A stretch of DNA of 64,000 nt, taken from the NCBI GenBank assembly GCA_025359445.1, contig JANYGB010000034.1, forward strand, positions 1-64,000, given 5' to 3'. A model generated the notes under the pieces. The model was not told the origin of the DNA, ran no database searches, and saw only the letters and a program-made list of their open reading frames with translations. A program made the position numbers and the translations under genes. Each line of letters starts with the position of its first letter. The stretch's first letter is position 1. The stretch is from Sphingomonadaceae bacterium (GTDB taxonomy: Bacteria; Pseudomonadota; Alphaproteobacteria; Sphingomonadales; Sphingomonadaceae). This document shows positions 399 through 10,609 of this stretch, piece by piece.

Positions 399-830
399 AT
401 GAAGCTCATCAAACCAGTTATCGCGGTCGCTGCGCTGTGCGCCAGCGCACTTCCAGCAGGCGCCTTTGGTCCATCAGTCAATGTTGGCGGGGCGCAGTTT
501 ACGATCGGGCTCGTCGGCTACGTGCCGGTGATCTGCCGCGCCAATGTCGACGCCAGTGCGATTGCGCCAGTCGCCGGTACCACCTCGCTCGGCATGCTCA
601 AGGAATTCTGCAACAGCCCGACCGGCTATCGTGTGATAGCCGACTATTCGCCGCAGCTGGCGCAAGCCAAACTGATCGTCGATGGCGTGCCGGTTCCGCT
701 TCACATGGACGGTGGCTCGACCGTGGTCAGCCAATCGAACAGCGCGGCGATCGCGAGCCATTCGCTGGCGCTGGAATTGCCCAAGGACGGCCAGACCGGC
801 ACGATCAGCTTCCGGATCGAACCGCGTTAA
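399..830 (+). CDS. Secreted SCPU-like (spore coat protein U / pilin-like) small protein
   Basis: The ORF track starts at 267, but the ATG at 399 has a GGGAGG ribosome site eight bases upstream and begins a clear signal peptide (MKLIKPVIAVAALC, then ALPAGA), giving 143 aa. The mature part has two cysteines (VICRAN, EFCNS) and ends in a strand reading TISFRIEPR, matching the C-terminal strand of the pilin-like proteins across the locus (for example the one ending VRIFLEPR). It is therefore probably a divergent member of the SCPU family exported to the periplasm and possibly built into the neighbouring pilus. It is convergent to the ten-gene pilus operon and separated from it by a strong terminator, so it is transcribed independently. 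The 257 bases between the IS remnant and this gene show no other gene. Confidence 0.6.
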   Translation: MKLIKPVIAVAALCASALPAGAFGPSVNVGGAQFTIGLVGYVPVICRANVDASAIAPVAGTTSLGMLKEFCNSPTGYRVIADYSPQLAQAKLIVDGVPVPLHMDGGSTVVSQSNSAAIASHSLALELPKDGQTGTISFRIEPR

Positions 831-918: not shown

Positions 919-2004
919 TTACAACGTGGCGCAGGCAAACGACCCTGGATCGCTGTAGATCAGCGGAGTGACAGTCACCGTCAGGATATCGGCGTAAGTT
1001 GGTGATGGGTTCTTGCCCGATCCGCCTTCTTGCAAGGTGGCCTGGATCGGCAGCATATTGCCGGCTGTGGACAAGGTAGCTCGCACACAACTCCGCGAAA
1101 GTGCAGTCGCGTTGGGTAGCGGAGTAGAGGTATTGTCACGGTCAAAACCGAGGAAGTGCAAGCTGTACTTGATCTCGTCCTGCGCTGTAGCCGCGCCCGG
1201 CTTTTTAAGCTTGAAGGCGTTCTGCGAGGACAGTGTCACCGAGTAGGCGCCCGAGCTTTGCACAAAGACATGGTTGGACAAGTTGGTCTTCTGCGCCGTC
1301 GTGCCGAGCGAACCGGTTGTGATGTTGCCAATCTCGCCAAAGTCGAGCGCGGTTCCGGCGTAGTAGGTGCGCAGCGCGCTAAGTACGGTAACCGGGAAGA
1401 CCACGGCGTTGCTGAAACTGCCGGTCTGTTCGAGACCATTGCTTTGCCCGCCTTGGATATTGCAGGCAAAGAACGCGTCAAAGGCTAGGCTTTGGACTGC
1501 TTGCAGATCGAGGTTCGCCGGGAGCGAGACTTGAAAGGTAACCTGCGCGGTGTTCGACGCTGCATTGTTGCCGGTGAAGTTGATTTTGAGAAAGCGGTTG
1601 CTTCCGCTTGGCACCGCACTACTCGGCGCGTAGATCGGTGGCGGAGCGTTGTAATTGTAGAAAATGTTGAGCCCGATCCCGGTGATCGCGGCACTGCCTG
1701 CAACCGCAGTCGGCACAAGCGACGTACCATCGGCCGCAGCTCCCGTTCCGGGATTCGCACGCAGGAAGAAATTCACGATACGCGTGTCACCGCCGCCCGA
1801 GTTATTTACACGGGTCAGGTTTAGTGTGATCGTTGTGGTGGCAAGCCCGCTCGGATTGAACGGATCGTAAACCGCCGGCGCGGCGGTTGCGCTGCCGGTC
1901 ACACCGCAAGTCGATGTTTGGGCCTGGGCCGCAGTGGCAAAGCTGGCTACCACAGCACCAAGCAACAAGGCCAAGTTGCGGAATGTTTTTGTGAAACTGG
2001 ACAT
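919..2004 (-). CDS. SCPU-domain tip adhesin-like protein of a Csu-type pilus
   Basis: The ORF track uses a TTG at 2010, but AAGGA lies about nine bases before the ATG at 2004, giving 361 aa. A signal peptide ends near the AQAQ of residues 25-30. The mature N-terminus CGVTGS, followed by VYDPFNPS, is typical of the spore-coat-U (SCPU) domain. At about twice the length of the other pilins it fits a two-domain subunit such as CsuE, the tip adhesin of Acinetobacter archaic pili. The C-terminal part contains a YADILTVTVTP strand, the usual donor/last strand of this fold. It is the last gene of the operon, two bases after the usher stop, the position csuE holds. The tip role is inferred from length and position. 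Confidence 0.8.
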   Translation of the reverse strand: MSSFTKTFRNLALLLGAVVASFATAAQAQTSTCGVTGSATAAPAVYDPFNPSGLATTTITLNLTRVNNSGGGDTRIVNFFLRANPGTGAAADGTSLVPTAVAGSAAITGIGLNIFYNYNAPPPIYAPSSAVPSGSNRFLKINFTGNNAASNTAQVTFQVSLPANLDLQAVQSLAFDAFFACNIQGGQSNGLEQTGSFSNAVVFPVTVLSALRTYYAGTALDFGEIGNITTGSLGTTAQKTNLSNHVFVQSSGAYSVTLSSQNAFKLKKPGAATAQDEIKYSLHFLGFDRDNTSTPLPNATALSRSCVRATLSTAGNMLPIQATLQEGGSGKNPSPTYADILTVTVTPLIYSDPGSFACATL

Positions 2005-2006
2005 CT

Positions 2007-4499
2007 TCAACGTTCCTTCACCGGGGTGATGTCGCCCAGGCGTACTACGCCGTCGGCATCAGCCGGAATTGTAATAACATAAACCGAATTCTTGGTGTCG
2101 AGCATTTCCAGCCGCCACTGTCCCGGAGCGAGACCGGTTGCGCCAAAGCGGCCCTGCCGGTTGGTGAACAATGTCACCGCCGGCCGTTCGGGATGCGCGA
2201 GTTCGGTCGCCTTGCCCGAGACCAGTGAAACCGGCTGGCCATCCACGTCGAGCATCGTGCCCAGCGCAGTCAGGTGATAGTCCGAGCCGACTTCCAGCAC
2301 GTAGCCGCTGCGGTATGGCGGGAACAGCTTGAACGATCCCTGGCCCACATCGACCCCCGGCTTGGCGCCATCGACGTCGACCGTGATCACGCGTTCGGAA
2401 TAAGACGACAGGCTGGGCATGGTTGCCACTCCAAGCGCGCCGGTGCTGGCCGTGTAGCCATAGCTCGACGGATCGACGATGACGCTGTCGACCTTGAGAC
2501 TGGGGTGGGGTTTGACCACCGCAAAGCTGTCATAGATCGGGCGGCCAATCGAAGTGACGCCATCGGCCACGGCAAACGAGGTGCCAAAGCGGAAGCTGGT
2601 GCGCTGGCCGGTGCTCTGACCGAACCCGTCGGTAAAGCTGCCGAAGTGGCTCAGCCCCAATTCGGCGCGGTTGCCAAAGTAGCTGGCATTGAGCGAGACG
2701 TTGGAGCCGAAGTCCGAGCGTTCGACATCGGCAGTGACGTTATAGCTACCCACGCCGCTGCCATGCAGCGTCTGGTACGAAACGCGGGTGCGGTTGTCGC
2801 GGGTGTCGTATTCGCCGCGCAGGCTGGAATTGCGGCCGAGGCGAACGGTCAGCGTTACGAATCCGCTGAACTCGTGGCCGTTGGCGTCTTCGGTATAGCG
2901 CGCTTCAGCAGTCAGGCTCGCGGTCGGAGAAATCCGGTATCCGCCCGCCAGGCTGTAGTTGTGGACATCCCGGTTCGTGCTGCGGCCCTTCGAGAAGCGC
3001 GCATTGGCACCCATGTAGAAGTTTGAATTGAACGCATGGGTATAGCCGCCACCCAGTTCGTATTCGTACTGGTTATCGGCGAGCAGGAAGGTGATCGGCG
3101 CGAACCGCCGGCTGCGGTGTTCAGCGAACAGGTTGAAGCTGTCCGATGTTCCGTCGGAATGCTGGAGCAGCCGCTGGAAGGTCGCCTGCAAGGCAAAGCC
3201 ATCGCCGTATCCGACCGTGTGGCTGAACGCCGCCTGGGTGCCGATCGTACCGAATTGGGTACCGAACACGGCTTCAAGACCAGCCATCTGGATTTGGTCG
3301 TCGGCCTGGAAATTGGCTCCCAGGGTAACCTGATCGCTAATTCCGCGGCGGTAGAAGCCGGTCGCCGCCCACTGGTCCGAATAGACCGGGCCGTGCAGCC
3401 CGAGCGGTGCCTTGACCCCGGCGTAGAAGCCAAATTCGCTGAGCCCTTTGCCCAGCTGGGTCTGATCGAGGAAAAGGTTGAAACGCAACACTTCGCTGCG
3501 CCCGGTATCGTCGAGCACGTTGAGGCGGATGTCGTTGCCGCCTTGCGCAAACGGGAAGTCGCGCAGGTTGTAGTTGCCTGGGCCAAGCTGAAGGCGGCGG
3601 ACCTGCTGACCGTTGACCAGCACTTCGACTACCGAATTGCGGCTGAGCGTAAAGGTGCGGTCACCGCGCGGGCGGATGATCTGCTGCGGATTGAGAACCG
3701 AATAGGACCGGAAGATCGAGATCCCCGCGATGTCCGGGGCCGACTGGAAGCCGCGGCCCTGGGTATCAAGATCGCCCAGCGTAAAGCGGATCAGCTTTGA
3801 AGTATCGTCATAAACATAGCGGCTGCCGAGCCGCTGGAAATCGACCCCGTCATTGCCCGGTGACCAGATCGCGTCGGTTTCAAACACCGGACCCTTGAGC
3901 CGGATTGCCGCGTTAAGCAGGAATACCGGCGCAGCGAACCCGCTTTGCGGGCCGTCTTCGTAAAGATCGACCGAGCCGCGCACGTTGAGGTAGGCGCTGA
4001 CATCGGCCGGGCGGACAAACGTGCCGACCGATTGCGCGTCGAGCGCCGAGACCGAATAGCTGCGTGAGGCGCGCTTTTCGACCGGGATTTCAAAGCGCAG
4101 TTCAAGCGTGCGGGGATCGTAATTGACGATGATCCCGACGCTGGACAAGTCTTGCGGACCGATTGTGCCCTTGCCCGCCAGATTGGCGCGTAACGCGGTC
4201 ATCACATCAGGCGCGAGGATTGGCTCGAGCACTTGCAGCGTCCGGTCGGTCGGAAAGCTGAGCGCATCGTCGGTGGTGATCGTCAGCGGAACATCGCCGA
4301 GGTAAGCTGCGCCGTCCTTGGCCGGCACGGTCAGCACGATAGTACGCCCGGTCGGGTTAAGTCGTTCGGCGCGCGCGGCGGGTGCCTGCGGGGCCTGGTC
4401 GTCGGCGCTTCCGCCAGCGGTCCCGGCCAAAGCCGGCGATGCCAGCGCTGCCAGACTGGCCCCGAGCATCAAGCTGAAATGTCTGCCCCCGTGTCCCAT
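2007..4499 (-). CDS. Fimbrial outer-membrane usher protein (FimD/PapC/CsuD family)
   Basis: An 830-aa protein with a signal peptide (LGASLAALASPALA). It has the layout of chaperone-usher outer membrane ushers: an N-terminal periplasmic domain, then a long beta-barrel with the segment GDLDTQGRGFQSAPDIAG and the plug-region block VEVLVNGQQVRRLQLGPG, then repeated aromatic beta strands and a C-terminal domain ending KLFPPYRSGYVLEVG and beyond. The usher recruits chaperone-subunit complexes and secretes the growing pilus. It begins two bases after the chaperone stop and ends two bases before the tip gene. No strong ribosome site is seen at this ATG, so it may be translationally coupled to the chaperone gene. 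Confidence 0.93.
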   Translation of the reverse strand: MGHGGRHFSLMLGASLAALASPALAGTAGGSADDQAPQAPAARAERLNPTGRTIVLTVPAKDGAAYLGDVPLTITTDDALSFPTDRTLQVLEPILAPDVMTALRANLAGKGTIGPQDLSSVGIIVNYDPRTLELRFEIPVEKRASRSYSVSALDAQSVGTFVRPADVSAYLNVRGSVDLYEDGPQSGFAAPVFLLNAAIRLKGPVFETDAIWSPGNDGVDFQRLGSRYVYDDTSKLIRFTLGDLDTQGRGFQSAPDIAGISIFRSYSVLNPQQIIRPRGDRTFTLSRNSVVEVLVNGQQVRRLQLGPGNYNLRDFPFAQGGNDIRLNVLDDTGRSEVLRFNLFLDQTQLGKGLSEFGFYAGVKAPLGLHGPVYSDQWAATGFYRRGISDQVTLGANFQADDQIQMAGLEAVFGTQFGTIGTQAAFSHTVGYGDGFALQATFQRLLQHSDGTSDSFNLFAEHRSRRFAPITFLLADNQYEYELGGGYTHAFNSNFYMGANARFSKGRSTNRDVHNYSLAGGYRISPTASLTAEARYTEDANGHEFSGFVTLTVRLGRNSSLRGEYDTRDNRTRVSYQTLHGSGVGSYNVTADVERSDFGSNVSLNASYFGNRAELGLSHFGSFTDGFGQSTGQRTSFRFGTSFAVADGVTSIGRPIYDSFAVVKPHPSLKVDSVIVDPSSYGYTASTGALGVATMPSLSSYSERVITVDVDGAKPGVDVGQGSFKLFPPYRSGYVLEVGSDYHLTALGTMLDVDGQPVSLVSGKATELAHPERPAVTLFTNRQGRFGATGLAPGQWRLEMLDTKNSVYVITIPADADGVVRLGDITPVKER

Positions 4500-4501
4500 G
4501 G

Positions 4502-5251
4502 TCAGTTGTCGAGCGAGAAGCTCGCCTCCACCGTGCCGTCGGCGCTGGGTAGCTCAACCGGCACGGCCACACGCCGGGTCTGGCCGCCGCCAATCAGGCC
4601 AAAACCCATAGTCTGCTGGATTTCTGCGCCCGACAGGGACTTGCTGAACACTTGCGCGCCCGACTTGTCCTTTTCGACAATCCGCAAGTGGCCGTTGGAA
4701 AGGTAGCCGTGCGCCGGGCTTTGGTTGACCATGGTCACCGTGGCGTAAGTCTTGCCGCCGGTCCCGGGAGTCGCCTCGGCGCTTTGCACTTCGATCTTGG
4801 GTTTCACGCCGAGCGGGGCGACACTGATCAGCACCTGGAAGTTGTACAGGATCTGGATCGCCGACTGGCCTTCGGGCAGCTTGATCGGCAGCTGGGCGAC
4901 GGTGACGTAGTAGTGCTTGCTCTTGGCCAGCGCCGGATCGCCGACATACTGCACCCGGAAGGTCTGGGTCTGGCCCGGGGCAATAATCGTCTGCGGCGGG
5001 AACACCAGCAGATCGCCCGGATCCTTGCCGGTCTGCTTGACCCCTTCGGTTGTCAGATCAAGTTCCTGCACCGTCAGCTCGACCGGCAGCGGCGTGGCAA
5101 AGGTGTTTTCGACGGTGATCGTCTGCGACATTTGGCGGCCCGCGGTCTGCAGGTCGATTACCACCGGCTGCACGGTCATTGCCTGCGCCGCCTGGTACGG
5201 CGCGATGGCGGCGCAAAACATGGTTAACGCGTGCTTATAGTTGAGCTTCAC
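4502..5251 (-). CDS. Periplasmic pilus chaperone (PapD/CsuC family)
   Basis: A 249-aa protein starting with GTG at 5251 behind a strong GGGAGGAG ribosome site. After a signal peptide (AAIAPYQAAQA) it shows the two-immunoglobulin-domain PapD-like chaperone pattern: VENTFATPLPVELTVQ in the first domain, FPPQTIIAPGQTQTFRVQY before the G1 strand, and the alternating hydrophobic stretch IQILYNFQVLISVAP. Such chaperones hold pilin subunits by donor-strand complementation and deliver them to the usher. It is placed between the last pilin gene (29-base gap) and the usher, as csuC is in the Csu operon. Confidence 0.93.
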   Translation of the reverse strand: MKLNYKHALTMFCAAIAPYQAAQAMTVQPVVIDLQTAGRQMSQTITVENTFATPLPVELTVQELDLTTEGVKQTGKDPGDLLVFPPQTIIAPGQTQTFRVQYVGDPALAKSKHYYVTVAQLPIKLPEGQSAIQILYNFQVLISVAPLGVKPKIEVQSAEATPGTGGKTYATVTMVNQSPAHGYLSNGHLRIVEKDKSGAQVFSKSLSGAEIQQTMGFGLIGGGQTRRVAVPVELPSADGTVEASFSLDN

Positions 5252-5280
5252 AAGTATTCTCCTCCCGCCCCGGCGGGTAA

Positions 5281-5862
5281 TTAGTTGCTAGGCCGGATCT
5301 CGACCACGACGGCATCGGTGTAAGTCCCTGCCACCAGTGGATTGGTCCCCCGCGGTACCGCGATGTCGACAATAAGGTCACCCTTGGCCGGCTGATTGTA
5401 GGAAATCGCCGCACTGGCAGTCTGCGTGCCGAGCTGGACCGTCCGCTGCTGCCACTGCAAGCCAACATCGTAGGTCTGCATTTCACTGAAGCCGCCGCTG
5501 CCGCTGCGCGCGGCATTGGCTCCCAGCCGGACCAGCGCGCCATTGTAGCTGCGCACGGTGATCAGGTGCGAGGTATTGCAGACCACCGGAACCGCGAGTT
5601 CGATCGAGCTGGCGCGGGTTGCCGCAGTCGATTCGTCGACCAGATTGGGGAACACCACCACGCCGCCGGTTGGCCCGTTGTCCTGGTAAGTCGCGCCGAC
5701 CAGCTTGCTGGCCCGGGCTGAATTGGCAACGCAGCCCACCGGGGCATTGCCGAGCATTTCAAGCCGCTGTGTGGCGCGGTTGATATCCTGCGCCGCAGCG
5801 CCGGTCGTGCTCAGCGCGAACGCGAGCGAGGCTGCTAAGATCGGGATGACGGTCGCGCGCAT
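5281..5862 (-). CDS. SCPU-domain pilin-like protein 7 (closest to chaperone)
   Basis: A 193-aa secreted protein (signal peptide ending STTGAAAQ). Two cysteines (PVGCVAN near residue 43 and PVVCNTS near residue 93) would form the single disulfide usual for archaic pilins. It ends with PLVAGTYTDAVVVEI, the AGxYxDxVxV final strand shared by all subunits of the operon. GGAG sits eight bases before its ATG, and that ATG overlaps the stop of the preceding pilin by one base (TGATG), implying coupled translation. It has a long loop region after the first cysteine that the shorter pilins lack, so it may be a minor or adaptor subunit; that is inference. Confidence 0.8.
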   Translation of the reverse strand: MRATVIPILAASLAFALSTTGAAAQDINRATQRLEMLGNAPVGCVANSARASKLVGATYQDNGPTGGVVVFPNLVDESTAATRASSIELAVPVVCNTSHLITVRSYNGALVRLGANAARSGSGGFSEMQTYDVGLQWQQRTVQLGTQTASAAISYNQPAKGDLIVDIAVPRGTNPLVAGTYTDAVVVEIRPSN

Positions 5863-6449
5863 CAGCGTGGCTCCAGGAAGATGCGCACGGTGTCGACATA
5901 AGTGCCAGCCACTAGCGGCGCGCGGTTTTCGACGTTCGAAGCGCCGTCTTGAATTTCAATCCGCAGGCGGAATTCACCGGCCACGGCATCGTTGACAGCG
6001 ACGATTTGCTGGTTCTGACTGCGCACCTTGGCGGTGGCATCGAACAAGGTATCGACCGGACCCCAGTTAATCCGCGCCGTATAAGGCACGGCATAGGCAA
6101 ACCCGGCCGGCCGGTCGCTGACCCGCCCGTCGATCGGCCACAGTCCGTTGTTCTGCGATTCGATCCGGACTTCGTGCGGGAAGTTGCACACGGCATCGAA
6201 AGCGATGGTCACGCTGGCGGAGCGGACCTGCAGCGTTGCCGGATCGGTGAACTGGATGATCCGCAGCGTATCGCCATCGAGGCCAGCGATATTGTTAAGG
6301 CTGCCGGGAGCGATCTTGCCCTCGGCCATGGCGCAAGTCTGCGGGACCGAGCCGGTCACCGGCAAGGTGCGCACTGCGCTGCTGGTTTGAGCGAATGCGG
6401 GAGTAGTCCCGGCGAGCGCGGCGAGAATAAAGAGGGAGATTGTCCGCAT
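5862..6449 (-). CDS. SCPU-domain pilin-like protein 6
   Basis: A 195-aa protein with a signal peptide (MRTISLFILAALAGTTPAFA). Cysteines lie in PQTCAMAE and AVCNFPHE, and the C-terminus PLVAGTYVDTVRIFLEPR matches the family last strand. It resembles protein 7 in length and in the PLVAGTY ending more than the alanine/threonine-rich proteins 2-5, so proteins 6 and 7 probably form a subgroup. It begins four bases after the stop of protein 5 and has no clear ribosome site of its own, so coupled translation is likely. Confidence 0.8.
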   Translation of the reverse strand: MRTISLFILAALAGTTPAFAQTSSAVRTLPVTGSVPQTCAMAEGKIAPGSLNNIAGLDGDTLRIIQFTDPATLQVRSASVTIAFDAVCNFPHEVRIESQNNGLWPIDGRVSDRPAGFAYAVPYTARINWGPVDTLFDATAKVRSQNQQIVAVNDAVAGEFRLRIEIQDGASNVENRAPLVAGTYVDTVRIFLEPR

Positions 6450-6452
6450 GGC

Positions 6453-7007
6453 TCAGTTCACCGCTGCAATGGTTACGGTCACCAGACCGCGATAGTTGTT
6501 ATCGGCCACCAGCCGCAGCGAACTGCCGCCGCTGGTCGCAAAGCCCGAGATTGCCACGGTGATGTCGCCGGTAAAGGCGCTGGCCCGGGTCTGGGTGGCG
6601 GCGCTGTTGGCCGTAATGGCCGTGTTGTAGCTGGCCGGGGTGATGGTCCACCCGCTGGCAACCGCCACATAGTTGACCGAACGGGCGAACCCGGATGGCG
6701 GCGCGACGGTTGAATTCTGGGCAGCAAGCGGCGTGGCCGCCACGGTGATCGTGCTGCGGCCGGTGCAGAACGATCCGACCAGAACCTTGGCCGGCGCGGT
6801 CAGATCGGTGCGCAACTGGCCGGTGGCGGTATCGATCAGGACCCCCAGATCATAGCTGCCGGTGCCCGTCAGCGTGCCGCCAAAGCACATCGCCGGGGCC
6901 GTGCCGACGACGCCGACGTTCTTGGTGCTGGTGTTGCTCGTCTGCGCCAGCGCGGTGCCGGGCAAGGCCGCGATCAGGACCGGAGCGAGGAGGAAGAGTT
7001 TGCGCAT
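6453..7007 (-). CDS. SCPU-domain pilin-like protein 5
   Basis: The ORF track begins at a TTG overlapping the upstream gene, but the ATG at 7007 has GAGG about nine bases before it and starts a proper signal peptide (MRKLFLLAPVLIAALPGTALAQ), giving 184 aa. Cysteines occur in PAMCFGG and GSFCTGR. The Ser/Thr/Ala-rich body includes GFARSVNYVAVASGW, a segment closely mirrored in protein 4 (GFTRAVNYTATASGW), so these two are recent paralogues. It ends with a LVADNYRGLVTVTI strand, a variant of the LVAGNYSGN pattern. Confidence 0.8.
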   Translation of the reverse strand: MRKLFLLAPVLIAALPGTALAQTSNTSTKNVGVVGTAPAMCFGGTLTGTGSYDLGVLIDTATGQLRTDLTAPAKVLVGSFCTGRSTITVAATPLAAQNSTVAPPSGFARSVNYVAVASGWTITPASYNTAITANSAATQTRASAFTGDITVAISGFATSGGSSLRLVADNNYRGLVTVTIAAVN

Positions 7008-7018
7008 CGCTGGTCGCC

Positions 7019-7591
7019 TCAATCCGCGAACGCTGCCGGACCCAAGGTCACGACGACGTTTCCGCTATAATTGCCTGCAACCAGGATCAGGTCGCCGGGG
7101 GTGGTGAAACTGGACAGGGTCACCGAAAGATCGGCGATCTTGGGCAGCGGCTGAGTAGCACCACTGCCGGTAGCACTGGGCGAGGTACCGTCGCGCAAGG
7201 CCGCCGAGGTTGCCGCAGTGGTGCCGGTAGCCCACCCGCTCGCCGTGGCAGTGTAATTTACTGCGCGGGTGAAGCCGGGCTGAGGCGAGGTCGTATCGCT
7301 CGAAGTGAGCGCGGTGGTCGTCACCCGCACAACCGAGCCGGCAAAGTTGCAGAAGCTGGCCGGCAGGGTGACCGTGCGCGGCGCGATCGTATCGATCTTG
7401 CCGGTGCGCGGCCCCGAGCCGGCCGAGATCTGGCCCAGGTTGACCAGCGCCGGATTGGGGTTGCCCAGAATGCAGACCGAGCGGACTTGCGCGTCGATTG
7501 CGACGGTGCCGGTGGCAGTGGTGCTCTGCGCCATTGCGGGCGCGGCGGTGAGCAAAAATGCCAGGGCGGAAAGGCCGACGGTCTGCTTCAT
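7019..7591 (-). CDS. SCPU-domain pilin-like protein 4
   Basis: The signal peptide MKQTVGLSALAFLLTAAPAMAQ sets the ATG at 7591 as start (190 aa) rather than the track start at 7639. Cysteines lie in RSVCILGN and ASFCNFAG. The protein ends with LILVAGNYSGNVVVTLGP, almost the same last strand as protein 3 (GGYNGNVVVTLTP) and protein 2 (GAYTGNIVVVISP). The strong likeness among proteins 2-5 points to tandem duplication. It is a probable secreted pilus subunit handled by the chaperone encoded downstream. Confidence 0.8.
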   Translation of the reverse strand: MKQTVGLSALAFLLTAAPAMAQSTTATGTVAIDAQVRSVCILGNPNPALVNLGQISAGSGPRTGKIDTIAPRTVTLPASFCNFAGSVVRVTTTALTSSDTTSPQPGFTRAVNYTATASGWATGTTAATSAALRDGTSPSATGSGATQPLPKIADLSVTLSSFTTPGDLILVAGNYSGNVVVTLGPAAFAD

Positions 7592-7619
7592 GGGATTACC
7601 TGTTTCCAATTGCCTGCGG

Positions 7620-8153
7620 TTACAACGGAGGGGGCGCAACTGTCGGGGTCAGCGTAACGACAACATTGCCGTTGTAACCGCCCGCCACCATTAACCCGTT
7701 ACTGGGCGATGATGCTGCCGAGAGCGTTACCAGGATGTTGCCGGTAAACAGTCCGACGGTGGACGGCGTCCCGGCACCAGCAACCAGGCTGGAGTCCGAT
7801 GCGCTGGCCGAGTTCGCCGCCGCAGTTGCGGTATAGTCCACGCGGTTATCGAAGCCGGTTGGGGCTGCGGTGCCGGTGGTCAGCTGGGTGGTCGTGACGG
7901 ACATCGTCGCAGCGGTGTTGTTGCACCAGCCGGTCAGGGTTGCCGTCTTGCCGTTGACCTTGCTGGTGTCGAGCTTGCCGTTGGTGGAGAGCGAAAGCTC
8001 ACCCAGCGACAGCGTTACGCTCGGCAACGTGAAGGTGCAGCGACCAGCCACCGAACCGTCAATATTGACGGTGCCGGTGACGGGCGCGCTCTGGGCAAAT
8101 GCCGGGCTGGCCGCAAGGACCGCCGGAATTGCCAGAAGCATCAGTTTGCGCAT
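7620..8153 (-). CDS. SCPU-domain pilin-like protein 3
   Basis: A 177-aa protein. The ATG at 8153 has an AGGAG ribosome site eight bases upstream and a signal peptide MRKLMLLAIPAVLAASPAFAQ. Cysteines lie in AGRCTFTL and TGWCNNT. The body is rich in Thr, Ala and Ser, and the C-terminus is VAGGYNGNVVVTLTP plus a short proline tail (VAPPPL) not seen in its neighbours. It is one of four close paralogues in a row. Confidence 0.8.
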   Translation of the reverse strand: MRKLMLLAIPAVLAASPAFAQSAPVTGTVNIDGSVAGRCTFTLPSVTLSLGELSLSTNGKLDTSKVNGKTATLTGWCNNTAATMSVTTTQLTTGTAAPTGFDNRVDYTATAAANSASASDSSLVAGAGTPSTVGLFTGNILVTLSAASSPSNGLMVAGGYNGNVVVTLTPTVAPPPL

Positions 8154-8181
8154 CGGAATTCTCCTAGTGGAAGGATCAGGC

Positions 8182-8739
8182 TTAGTTAGGCGAAATCACG
8201 ACCACGATGTTGCCGGTATAGGCTCCCGCAACCAGGATGTCGGATGGGTTGGCGGTGCCGTAAGTGTTGGTGGTGATGTTGATGTTGCTCGCCGCATTGG
8301 CCAGTGAACCGCCACCGATGGTGGTTGCTGCGAGCGGGACTGCGGTGGTTGCATTGGTGAACGGACCGGCGTTAGCGGCGGTCGTATTCACCGCAACGCT
8401 GGCGGTGTAGTTGATCGTGTTGGAATAGCCGGTCGGAGCAGTGCCGCCGGTTACCAACGGATTTGCATCAACCGAGATTTTCGGCGTGCCGGTGTTGCAA
8501 ACCACGGTGGCCGAGCGCGTACCGAAGTCGGTCGTGAGACCGGTGCGCAGCGTGCCGTTGGCCTGTGCCAGTTCAAGGAAATCGACGGTCTGGGCAAAGG
8601 TGCTGCCGTTGCCGGGGGTAACGCTGCACTTAGCGGCAACGTTGCCGTTCAAAGTGATCGTGCCGGTGACGTTCTGCGCCATGGCGGGAGTGGCAAGTGC
8701 GGCACAAGCGGCAGCTGCGAGGAGTGCAATTTTCTTCAT
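8182..8739 (-). CDS. SCPU-domain pilin-like protein 2
   Basis: The track start at 9000 is too far upstream. The signal peptide MKKIALLAAAACAALATPAMAQ fixes the ATG at 8739, behind AAGGAAG, giving 185 aa. Cysteines in AAKCSVTP and VVCNTGTP, a GYSNTINYTASVAV segment parallel to those in proteins 3-5, and the final strand LVAGAYTGNIVVVI place it in the same family. Its strong ribosome site and simple pilin architecture make it one candidate for the major subunit; the sequence does not prove this. Confidence 0.8.
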   Translation of the reverse strand: MKKIALLAAAACAALATPAMAQNVTGTITLNGNVAAKCSVTPGNGSTFAQTVDFLELAQANGTLRTGLTTDFGTRSATVVCNTGTPKISVDANPLVTGGTAPTGYSNTINYTASVAVNTTAANAGPFTNATTAVPLAATTIGGGSLANAASNINITTNTYGTANPSDILVAGAYTGNIVVVISPN

Positions 8740-8828
8740 TTTCTTTCTTCCTTCATCAATGCCGGTCCCTCCCGGCGTTCCTTTTACTCTCCCGCAGCCG
8801 ACCCCAGCCCCGGGCATTCGATCTCCCG

Positions 8829-9500
8829 CTAAACGGCCGGTGAAACTGTCACGATCAACGTGTCGCTGTAATTTCCGGCGACCAGGATGTTCGAACCGCC
8901 ATAGACTGGCGCCGACATCGTGATCGTCGAACCGGCCAGCCCAAAGCTGCGCGGAACTTGCAGGCCGTTGGTGGTGCTTGCCGTGCCTTTGAACGTGCAC
9001 GGCGAGCTGCCCAGCGCCTGGTCGAGCTGTGCGACCGGGCAGGACCCGGTGACCGTTCCGGTGGCTGAACCGGTGTCGTACGGAATGTTGAGCGCCACAT
9101 CATACGGAGCGGCGTTGGTATAGCCGGTCGGTACGCTTGCAGCATTCTTCAGCGCACCATTCGCCGATGACACCGCGATCCGCCATGGGGCCGTGCATTC
9201 CGCCGTAAACGGCACTGTCGCAGTAAAGCCCGGCGTAATCGCGCCAGCGCTGACCGTGGCGTTGGGCGCACCGTTAGTGGCGAACCCGCAGGTGCCGCCG
9301 ACCGAGGCCTTCACGTTGATTGAGAGGATGGCCTGCGCAGGCCCGGGATAAACGTATGTGCCGGGGATGCTCGAGTCGCGATAATAAGCGGTAATCGCAT
9401 TTGCGGCGCTTTGTGCGCTGGCCGGGGCAGCATAGCCGCCGATTGCCAGCACCAGTGCTGCCAACGCCCCTCGCTTGCCTTTGCCTTGCCCGGTCAACAT
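8829..9500 (-). CDS. SCPU-domain pilin-like protein 1 (first gene of pilus operon)
   Basis: Of two in-frame starts the ATG at 9500 has GGAG at nine bases, whereas the TTG at 9509 has no room for one; it gives 223 aa. The signal peptide ends AAPASAQ. It is the longest of the seven pilins and has four cysteines (GGTCGFA, TAECTAP, TGSCPVA, SSPCTFK), so perhaps two disulfides. It ends ILVAGNYSDTLIVTVSP, the family strand. Being the promoter-proximal gene it probably sets the level of the operon. An 89-base gap separates it from protein 2, the largest gap in the operon. Confidence 0.8.
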   Translation of the reverse strand: MLTGQGKGKRGALAALVLAIGGYAAPASAQSAANAITAYYRDSSIPGTYVYPGPAQAILSINVKASVGGTCGFATNGAPNATVSAGAITPGFTATVPFTAECTAPWRIAVSSANGALKNAASVPTGYTNAAPYDVALNIPYDTGSATGTVTGSCPVAQLDQALGSSPCTFKGTASTTNGLQVPRSFGLAGSTITMSAPVYGGSNILVAGNYSDTLIVTVSPAV

Positions 9501-9964
9501 CTCAAACAACTCCGCGAATAATTGCCGCGCCGGGACGAGCCCGTACGGAAAACGATCAATAAAATTTCATGCGGCCCCGAAATTCAGACGGTCGATGGTT
9601 GCGTTCCGACCTGCCTGATTTCCAACACAAGTTAACGCAACCAAGGGGGGGGTTGCCAAGTAGATTCGTCCGTTCAGGAAATCTTAACCATTATCGGCAT
9701 GCAGAAAATTTCAATAAATCCGGCAATAAATTGAAATTACACATTTTTTATGGAGCAGGTGAGCGTCCCATTTTGGACTGATTGCTTGATTGAAATGGTT
9801 AAGACCAAAGGTTACCAAAGCCGCTGTGATGAATCTGCAACGCGACTCGCTCGCGACTCGCGGGTGAATGGCCGGTCCGGTGCAATGGCGAGTCGCAGGC
9901 GCATCCGACTAATTGATTCTATGCGAGACTTGCCTCGCCCGCGCCGCTGTGGGACCGTGCAGCG
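9501..9964. promoter_or_regulatory. AT-rich intergenic region upstream of the pilus operon (divergent promoters)
   Basis: This 464-base gap separates the pilus operon (-) from the lycopene-cyclase-like gene (+) and holds no credible gene; the ORFs listed inside lack ribosome sites and family features. About 9660-9830 is clearly richer in A and T than the surroundings and contains runs such as ACATTTTTTATGG. The pilus promoter probably lies here. A 9-bp inverted repeat is listed separately. No confident -35/-10 pair was identified. Confidence 0.5.
9707..9738. promoter_or_regulatory. Palindrome AATTTCAAT-N14-ATTGAAATT, candidate operator
   Basis: Two perfect 9-bp arms (AATTTCAAT and ATTGAAATT) are separated by 14 bases in the AT-rich stretch upstream of the pilus operon. 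The AT-rich arms and location fit a regulator-binding site better than a terminator, since there is no GC-rich stem. The binding protein is unknown. Confidence 0.4.
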
Positions 9965-10609
9965 ATGGTCGCGCAGCCACTTGCAATCCTTGGACATGGA
10001 CTCCTTCCCGGGTTGCTCGCGGTGCATTTGCTGCAGGTCCGTCCGGATCAGCCAATCCTGCTCCTCTCGTCCGATCATGCGCTGGGTGGCGCGCACCTCG
10101 AGCCGGTTGTCGCCAGCCGGCTAAGCCCCGTTGCGCGCAGTTTGATCGAACCGTTCGTGGTGTCCAGCTGGCCGGCCTATTACCTGGTTCAGGGCGGTAA
10201 CACCGATTTGCAGGAGGACGAGGTCCTACTGCTTGATCCGTTGCAGGTCTGGCTCGAATTGCAGGCGCGGCTCGATCCGGCGGCGCTGATTGCGCCGTGC
10301 GGGCCGGTTGCGCTTAATGGGACCTGGCTTAGCTGGGATGGCGGCCGGGCCGAGATTGACCGGCTGATCGATCTGGGTCCGCTGACCGGATGCAGCGGCG
10401 AAAGCGAGATCGTCGGGGTGGATGCGGCACGGCGGCTGACCTTGCCGGTGCTTGCCGATTACGACGCAGCCTGCGGCGAATGGTCAGCCCGCCAATACCT
10501 GCCGCTGGGCGACGAGCGTCTGGTGGTGCGCAAACTGCCGCGCGCGACGCACTTGATCGGTCAGCAAAGCACCTTTGAGACGTTGCTTAATGGCCTGACC
10601 GCGGCTTGA
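9965..10609 (+). CDS. Lycopene beta-cyclase (CrtY)-like protein, N-terminal part only
   Basis: A 214-aa protein. The N-terminus (LLPGLLAVHLLQVRPDQPILLL, then ALGGAHLE) parallels the dinucleotide-binding start of bacterial CrtY (GGGLAGGLLALxLxxxRPD, then GGNHTW), but the glycine motif is degraded to GHGLLPGLL. LIEPFVVSSWPAYYLV resembles the CrtY stretch ending in WxxYxVxFP, and YLPLGDERLVVRKL resembles its later YVLPLxxxxxxVEDT. The protein then stops, so about the last third of a ~380-aa cyclase is missing. True cyclases turn linear lycopene into beta-carotene with FAD; this copy may have lost that activity. No other carotenoid gene is nearby, and a TonB receptor follows after 16 bases. The family link is a reading by eye and could be wrong. 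Confidence 0.4.
   Translation: MVAQPLAILGHGLLPGLLAVHLLQVRPDQPILLLSSDHALGGAHLEPVVASRLSPVARSLIEPFVVSSWPAYYLVQGGNTDLQEDEVLLLDPLQVWLELQARLDPAALIAPCGPVALNGTWLSWDGGRAEIDRLIDLGPLTGCSGESEIVGVDAARRLTLPVLADYDAACGEWSARQYLPLGDERLVVRKLPRATHLIGQQSTFETLLNGLTAA

Follow-up and report, generated by a model that had tools for sequence, protein, structure and literature searches.

Archaic (sigma) chaperone-usher pili are the closest described systems to the locus analyzed here. In the Csu pilus of Acinetobacter baumannii, csuA/B encodes the major subunit, CsuA and CsuB are adaptors and CsuE is the tip (PMC9452303, PMC4654587). Assembly starts from the tip and proceeds by donor-strand exchange (PMC9452303, PMC4654587), and Arg89 of the archaic chaperones, a super-conserved residue, binds the C-terminal carboxylate of the subunit (PMC4654587). 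CupE pili of Pseudomonas aeruginosa are archaic as well and have one major and several minor pilins, three in all. Their minor pilin genes cupE2 and cupE3 are coupled, as are the usher and tip genes; how the minor pilins are arranged, and what they do, has been described as unknown (PMC10104325).

Gene content and order of the locus

The window, a stretch of 64,000 nucleotides from a member of the Sphingomonadaceae, contains on its minus strand (9500 to 919) ten tightly packed, intact ORFs encoding seven pilin-like subunits (S1–S7), a chaperone, an usher and a tip-sized subunit. Signal peptides are present on the pilins, the chaperone and the tip. The gene starts were refined using relatives and signal peptides, and are the higher coordinates of the minus-strand genes listed here, with position 2004 as a second candidate start for the tip gene.

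8829–9500, minus strand: S1, first pilin-like subunit, approximately 223 aa (own clade, support 0.996)
8182–8739, minus strand: S2, pilin-like subunit with putative N-terminal donor strand VTGTITLNGNVAAKC (clade support 0.988)
7620–8153, minus strand: S3, pilin-like subunit (clade support 0.997)
7019–7591, minus strand: S4, pilin-like subunit (clade support 0.999)
6453–7007, minus strand: S5, pilin-like subunit (clade support 0.845)
5862–6449, minus strand: S6, pilin-like subunit, C-terminus ...IFLEPR (clade support 0.995)
5281–5862, minus strand: S7, pilin-like subunit nearest the chaperone gene (Pfam SCPU E = 0.019)
4502–5251, minus strand: periplasmic chaperone (PapD_N), GTG start; nearest solved relative CsuC
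2007–4499, minus strand: outer-membrane usher (PF00577)
919–2010, minus strand: tip subunit, two-domain-sized, mature start at the first cysteine
848–894: inverted repeat between X0 and the tip gene, likely a bidirectional terminator
399–830, plus strand: X0, secreted pilin-like protein of 143 aa, same donor-strand pattern as the pilins

The order of pilins, chaperone, usher and tip is the one found in the Csu operon. Further similarities with Csu are the CsuC-like chaperone, the two conserved cysteines in each pilin, and the presence of a predicted donor strand on the pilins but not on the tip. The differences are as follows: there are seven pilins instead of three, the pilin-like X0 is an addition, no subunit of the window matches the SCPU family above the cut-off, the Arg89/Arg174/Tyr196 anchor of the chaperone is replaced, and the C-termini of the subunits run past the last strand. 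CupE, too, has three pilins where we find seven; the remaining differences are expected to apply to CupE as well.

Our preferred interpretation, to which we assign a probability of roughly 70%, is that the locus encodes a divergent archaic-type chaperone-usher fiber with seven specialized, ordered pilins. Fibers of this kind usually have two to four different subunits, and the Csu and CupE clusters both have three pilins. A set of seven distinct pilins kept in order across genera provides a natural system for studying how the order and number of subunits are set.

Affiliation with the archaic pathway

The chaperone and the usher both exceed the Pfam cut-offs (PF00345, 30.9 bits; PF00577, 30.7 bits), and each of these is the single match to its family in the whole 2.96-Mb genome; no second usher was found in a search of the Novosphingobium-type genome. 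Against NCBIfam, usher and chaperone gave weak matches and the pilins chance matches. When the chaperone profile (A7) was compared with the PDB, CsuC was the sole match at E ≤ 0.01 (E = 7e-8); a single-sequence PDB search with the usher returned nothing. The usher is 23–28% identical, over partial length, to the ushers of SCPU operons in relatives and forms a clade separate from them. It is only 27% identical to FimD over 89 residues (E = 0.025), and BLAST gave no match to EcpC at E ≤ 10. Given the CsuC match of the chaperone, a weak CsuE match of the S6/S7 profile, the distance from SCPU-operon ushers, the marginal resemblance to FimD and the missing EcpC match, the system classifies by sequence as a relative of the archaic (sigma) pathway that lies outside its SCPU branch. 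Membership of the alternative (alpha) pathway was also considered and is not supported: the EcpC match is missing, and the mature chaperone of the window contains no cysteine, whereas chaperones of that pathway have a conserved pair.

The initial annotation had called the operon Csu-like and treated its pilins as SCPU-like. A profile search of each pilin does not bear out an assignment to the SCPU family. No subunit of the window reaches the cut-off of Pfam SCPU (PF05229), and S7, the nearest of the seven to this family, is alone in scoring at all (E = 0.019). Among the relatives, SCPU matches are found for 0/35 members of the S2–S5 group, 0/13 of S1, 8/24 of S6/S7 (best 9.5e-7) and 1/14 of the tip, while genuine SCPU operons in relatives score 63–121 bits. 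The S6/S7 profile has CsuE as its best PDB match, a weak one (E = 0.0095); the profiles of S2–S5, S1 and the tip retrieved no pilus protein from the PDB above noise. The locus could still be an ordinary archaic SCPU operon of the Csu/CupE kind with some extra minor pilins, as its gene order, its CsuC-like chaperone and the weak SCPU matches among the S6/S7 relatives would suggest. We regard this as unlikely, as the usher sits in a separate clade with low partial-length identity to its SCPU-operon counterparts, none of the 35 S2–S5 members matches SCPU, and the archaic anchor residue Arg89 is missing. The archaic affiliation is broadly retained, on account of CsuC and the weak CsuE match, as is the observation that there are more pilins than in Csu, but "Csu-like" is too narrow for a system with its own usher clade, subunits below the SCPU cut-off and altered anchor residues.

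In an alignment of the chaperones, the positions of Arg89, Arg174 and Tyr196 are occupied by Tyr, Tyr and Phe in the window protein; these assignments derive from the sequence alignment, with the columns of R174 and Y196 (the latter aligned by eye) less certain than that of R89. The Arg89 position is changed in all 20 chaperones of the clade that were compared, mostly to Tyr and otherwise to Phe, Met or Leu. It is kept in 7/7 chaperones of SCPU operons, in the Leptolyngbya chaperone and in one of the two Vibrio chaperones. Inspection of the window chaperone by eye did not reveal the classical Arg of strand A1 either. The subunits show a corresponding change. In nearly all of the SCPU pilins compared, the chain ends at the last strand, strand F, with an aromatic residue (Phe, Tyr or Trp), whereas S1–S7 carry tails beyond this strand, such as ISPN, LGPAAFAD, FLEPR and IRPSN. 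The aromatic chain end held by the lost Arg89/Arg174/Tyr196 anchor is missing from these subunits. That chaperone anchor and subunit C-termini have changed together suggests, at the level of sequence, that the subunit is held in another way. In our model, this clade would have replaced the carboxylate anchor of its archaic-related chaperone, with the C-termini of the subunits altered to match. More tentatively, and in our judgment doubtful as a complete description, the system may represent a separate subtype, defined by an anchor with neither the archaic Arg/Tyr nor the classical Arg/Lys, a programmed order of seven pilins and a separately controlled terminator, X0.

The usher clade also includes sister operons (28–40% usher identity), for example on pLA5 of Novosphingobium pentaromativorans, in Sphingobium sp. 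TomTYG65 and, more distantly, in Vibrio alginolyticus and Leptolyngbya. The sister operons encode a chaperone, usually a tip, and one to three pilins. Pilins are annotated as 'hypothetical protein' in the records examined, so that an SCPU-based survey would easily miss this branch. Sister operons L061 and L063–L066 have a different gene order, with pilin genes on both sides of the tip gene and the chaperone gene downstream of it.

Conservation and orthology of the seven pilins

With the usher as query, 196 genomes of the genus yielded homologs in 33 cases (E ≤ 1e-50) and 401 genomes of the order in 61 (E ≤ 1e-40), the latter all within one family and distributed over 19 genera. More distant relatives of the usher come from further Alphaproteobacteria and from Vibrio, Photobacterium and Leptolyngbya. 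The genes of the retrieved operons were assigned with group profiles. The exact arrangement S1-S2-S3-S4-S5-S6-S7-chaperone-usher-tip with a convergent X0 is present in 19 distinct loci (20 with one duplicate) from five genera. Such repeated occurrence of the same order, with each of the seven positions filled, excludes chance. At least 18 related genomes share the ordered set, which identifies it as an old, organized machine rather than a product of recent gene copying. The initial annotation named, as grounds against its own reading, a seven-subunit order that is both standard and described in close relatives, and half of this holds: the order is standard among close relatives, but searches of the open literature found no paper on this operon. 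The expanded chaperone-usher variant is real and conserved, and undescribed in the open literature searched.

Exceptions in pilin number are few: eight in L024 and L060, six in L059 and five in L027/L083. L060 has expanded independently: it lacks S3 and S4 but has four pilins of the S2 type. Sister operons whose usher is 31–50% identical mostly have two or three pilins.

A tree was built from 273 pilins, and each of the positions S1–S7 forms its own clade in it, with support values between 0.85 and 0.999. S2–S5 group together, S6 groups with S7 (support 0.98), and S1 falls on the side of S6/S7. S2–S5 had been taken for close paralogs with a common last strand; their paralogy and the shared last-strand motif AGxYxGxVxVT stand, but they are not very close, as S3 and S4 are approximately 38% identical and the other pairs approximately 30–35%. 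The pairing of S6 with S7 is upheld by the tree, at approximately 24% identity. S1 indeed has four cysteines, two core and two extra, and all of these are conserved in the 20 loci examined. The cysteine pair is invariant in the alignments of the S1, S2–S5 and S6–S7 groups. S5 is the most conserved of the seven pilins, with a mean identity of 65%.

All of S1–S7, as well as X0, have hydrophobic residues at positions -10 and -8 from the first cysteine, and nearly all have one at -4. Judged by sequence pattern, the segment just before the first cysteine of S1–S7 corresponds to a donor strand. The mature tip begins at its first cysteine and is consequently predicted to have no donor strand; it has the size of two domains and conserved cysteines. 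An AlphaFold model of S5 and S6 as one chain, translated across the TGA stop of S5 to look at donor-strand pairing, was poor (pLDDT 55), and its fold matches have little meaning for that reason.

That each position forms its own clade while the order is kept dates the duplications to before the divergence of the species. It was suggested earlier that the fiber might vary in phase or composition, or that the pilins are tandem duplicates serving as alternative major subunits. Related sequences with a common donor-strand pattern speak for pilins that are interchangeable in this manner, with fiber composition varying from cell to cell, as do the subunit numbers of five, six and eight in a few relatives. 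We nevertheless consider this very improbable. Old orthologous groups in a fixed order, seen in 19 loci, argue against recent tandem copies and alternative major subunits, and S4–S7 are tightly coupled, as expected for genes that are co-produced. Moreover, the operon contains no homopolymer of at least 7 nt and no tandem-repeat array, and those inverted repeats that were detected over long range are both short and imperfect.

The coupling is visible in the gene spacing, which is regular across loci, with median gaps of 83 nt between S1 and S2, 27 (S2–S3), 37 (S3–S4), 6 (S4–S5), 3 (S5–S6) and -1 nt (S6–S7), the last reflecting a 1-nt overlap of the S6 stop with the S7 start. RNA hairpins between S1 and S2, a possible sign of differential expression, gave inconsistent z-scores.

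For the ordered fiber that we favor, we infer the following model of assembly and stoichiometry. One adhesive surface fiber would be assembled via the chaperone-usher pathway, with the chaperone delivering eight subunits (S1–S7 and the tip) to the usher. Assembly would start at the tip, the N-terminal strand of each incoming subunit filling the groove of the previous one. The seven pilins, as old specialized paralogs, would take different and probably ordered positions. By analogy with the roles of csuA/B, CsuA, CsuB and CsuE and with the coupling of cupE2 and cupE3, the translationally coupled S7–S4 may act as adaptors near the tip, made in similar amounts, and S1, encoded by the first gene and followed by the largest gap, may form the main shaft. 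Judged by the gene order of Csu, the likeliest major subunit is S1.

X0, leader sequences and neighborhood

X0 is separated from the tip gene by the inverted repeat, which has 21-nt arms (848–868 and 874–894), a 5-nt loop and a T run on either strand. The initial annotation recorded here an additional SCPU-like gene across the terminator; the gene is real and its product pilin-like, but X0 has no match in Pfam, SCPU included. Weak profile matches link it to the pilin groups in several loci. The model of X0 is a beta-sandwich of moderate confidence (pLDDT 80), whose PDB matches include the pilins CS20, PsaA, CsuA/B and FimG at E-values of 0.004–0.03, short of significance. All complete seven-subunit loci have X0 next to the tip gene. 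In several sister operons (L032, the second operon of L069, L072, L073, L075 and L079) X0 comes after the tip gene and has the same direction. Its donor-strand pattern, the GTTAAC(C) box that it has in common with the operon and this co-direction make X0 probably part of the system, as a component of the fiber machinery. In classical type 1 pili, the fim operon encodes tip, adaptor and rod subunits as well as the chain-terminating FimI. FimI is a possible parallel for X0, which differs in lying outside the operon and whose role is proposed by analogy. In the model, X0, separately transcribed in this lineage, would probably either be one more subunit or terminate assembly; it is tempting to speculate that it acts as a chain terminator or base subunit.

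Three features were annotated in the leaders of S1 and X0.

9645–9652, minus strand: C8 tract of the S1 leader, with TTGGCA on one side and GTTAAC on the other
9631–9636: GTTAAC box of the S1 leader, a candidate site of CtrA type
318–330 (approximate), plus strand: GGTTAACC-type box approximately 76 nt upstream of X0, conserved in most relatives

GTTAAC/TTAACCAT boxes upstream of S1 (about 9618–9800) and X0 (about 318–330) are strongly enriched across the relatives. A GTTAAC(C) box is found upstream of X0 in 11 of 18 loci (0.17 expected by chance) and upstream of S1 in 9 of 18 (0.63 expected), compared with 0 of 18 for the internal chaperone and S5 genes and 2 of 88 for other ORFs. From their sequence these boxes resemble CtrA binding sites, and we take them to be candidate sites of this type. 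The arrangement TTGGCA-N17-GTTAAC was considered as a putative promoter, for which GTTAAC would be a poor -10 element; it may equally well contain a CtrA-type box. Scans for sigma-70 promoters and terminators gave no more matches than in shuffled sequences.

The C tract raises the question whether expression of the whole fiber is phase-variable through slippage in the S1 leader. At this position the tract reads C7, C8, C8, C10, C10 and C10 in a further six genomes of the same clade, so that the length ranges from C7 to C10 in seven genomes of one clade, and there is a precedent in the Bordetella pertussis fim3 promoter, in which a single C deletion switches expression and phenotype (PMC10172299). 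The distance between TTGGCA and GTTAAC, on the other hand, is held at 17–19 nt despite the changing tract length, as though the spacing were constant, which makes constrained spacing as likely an explanation as switching. In addition, the remaining seven-subunit operons, which are more distant, lack the tract, no variation was seen within a strain, and the promoter itself is putative. On balance a poly-C switch seems rather improbable.

In three metagenome assemblies (L021–L023; G023, G163 and G183) the contig with the operon begins inside or at S3 and the S1 leader lies on a separate contig, possibly because of assembly problems at the paralogous genes. Beside the operon, a conserved ORF of 214 aa (9965–10609, plus strand) has no Pfam match, and homologs of it (39–58% identity) are likewise neighbors of the operon in L025, L044, L081 and L082. 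At the other side, positions 1–110 of the window, which are the start of the contig, look like the C-terminus of a transposase of IS3 type (...FDYIERFYNPTRRHSTLGYLSPMDFEKKAEVG), which places the operon beside an insertion element at the contig end.
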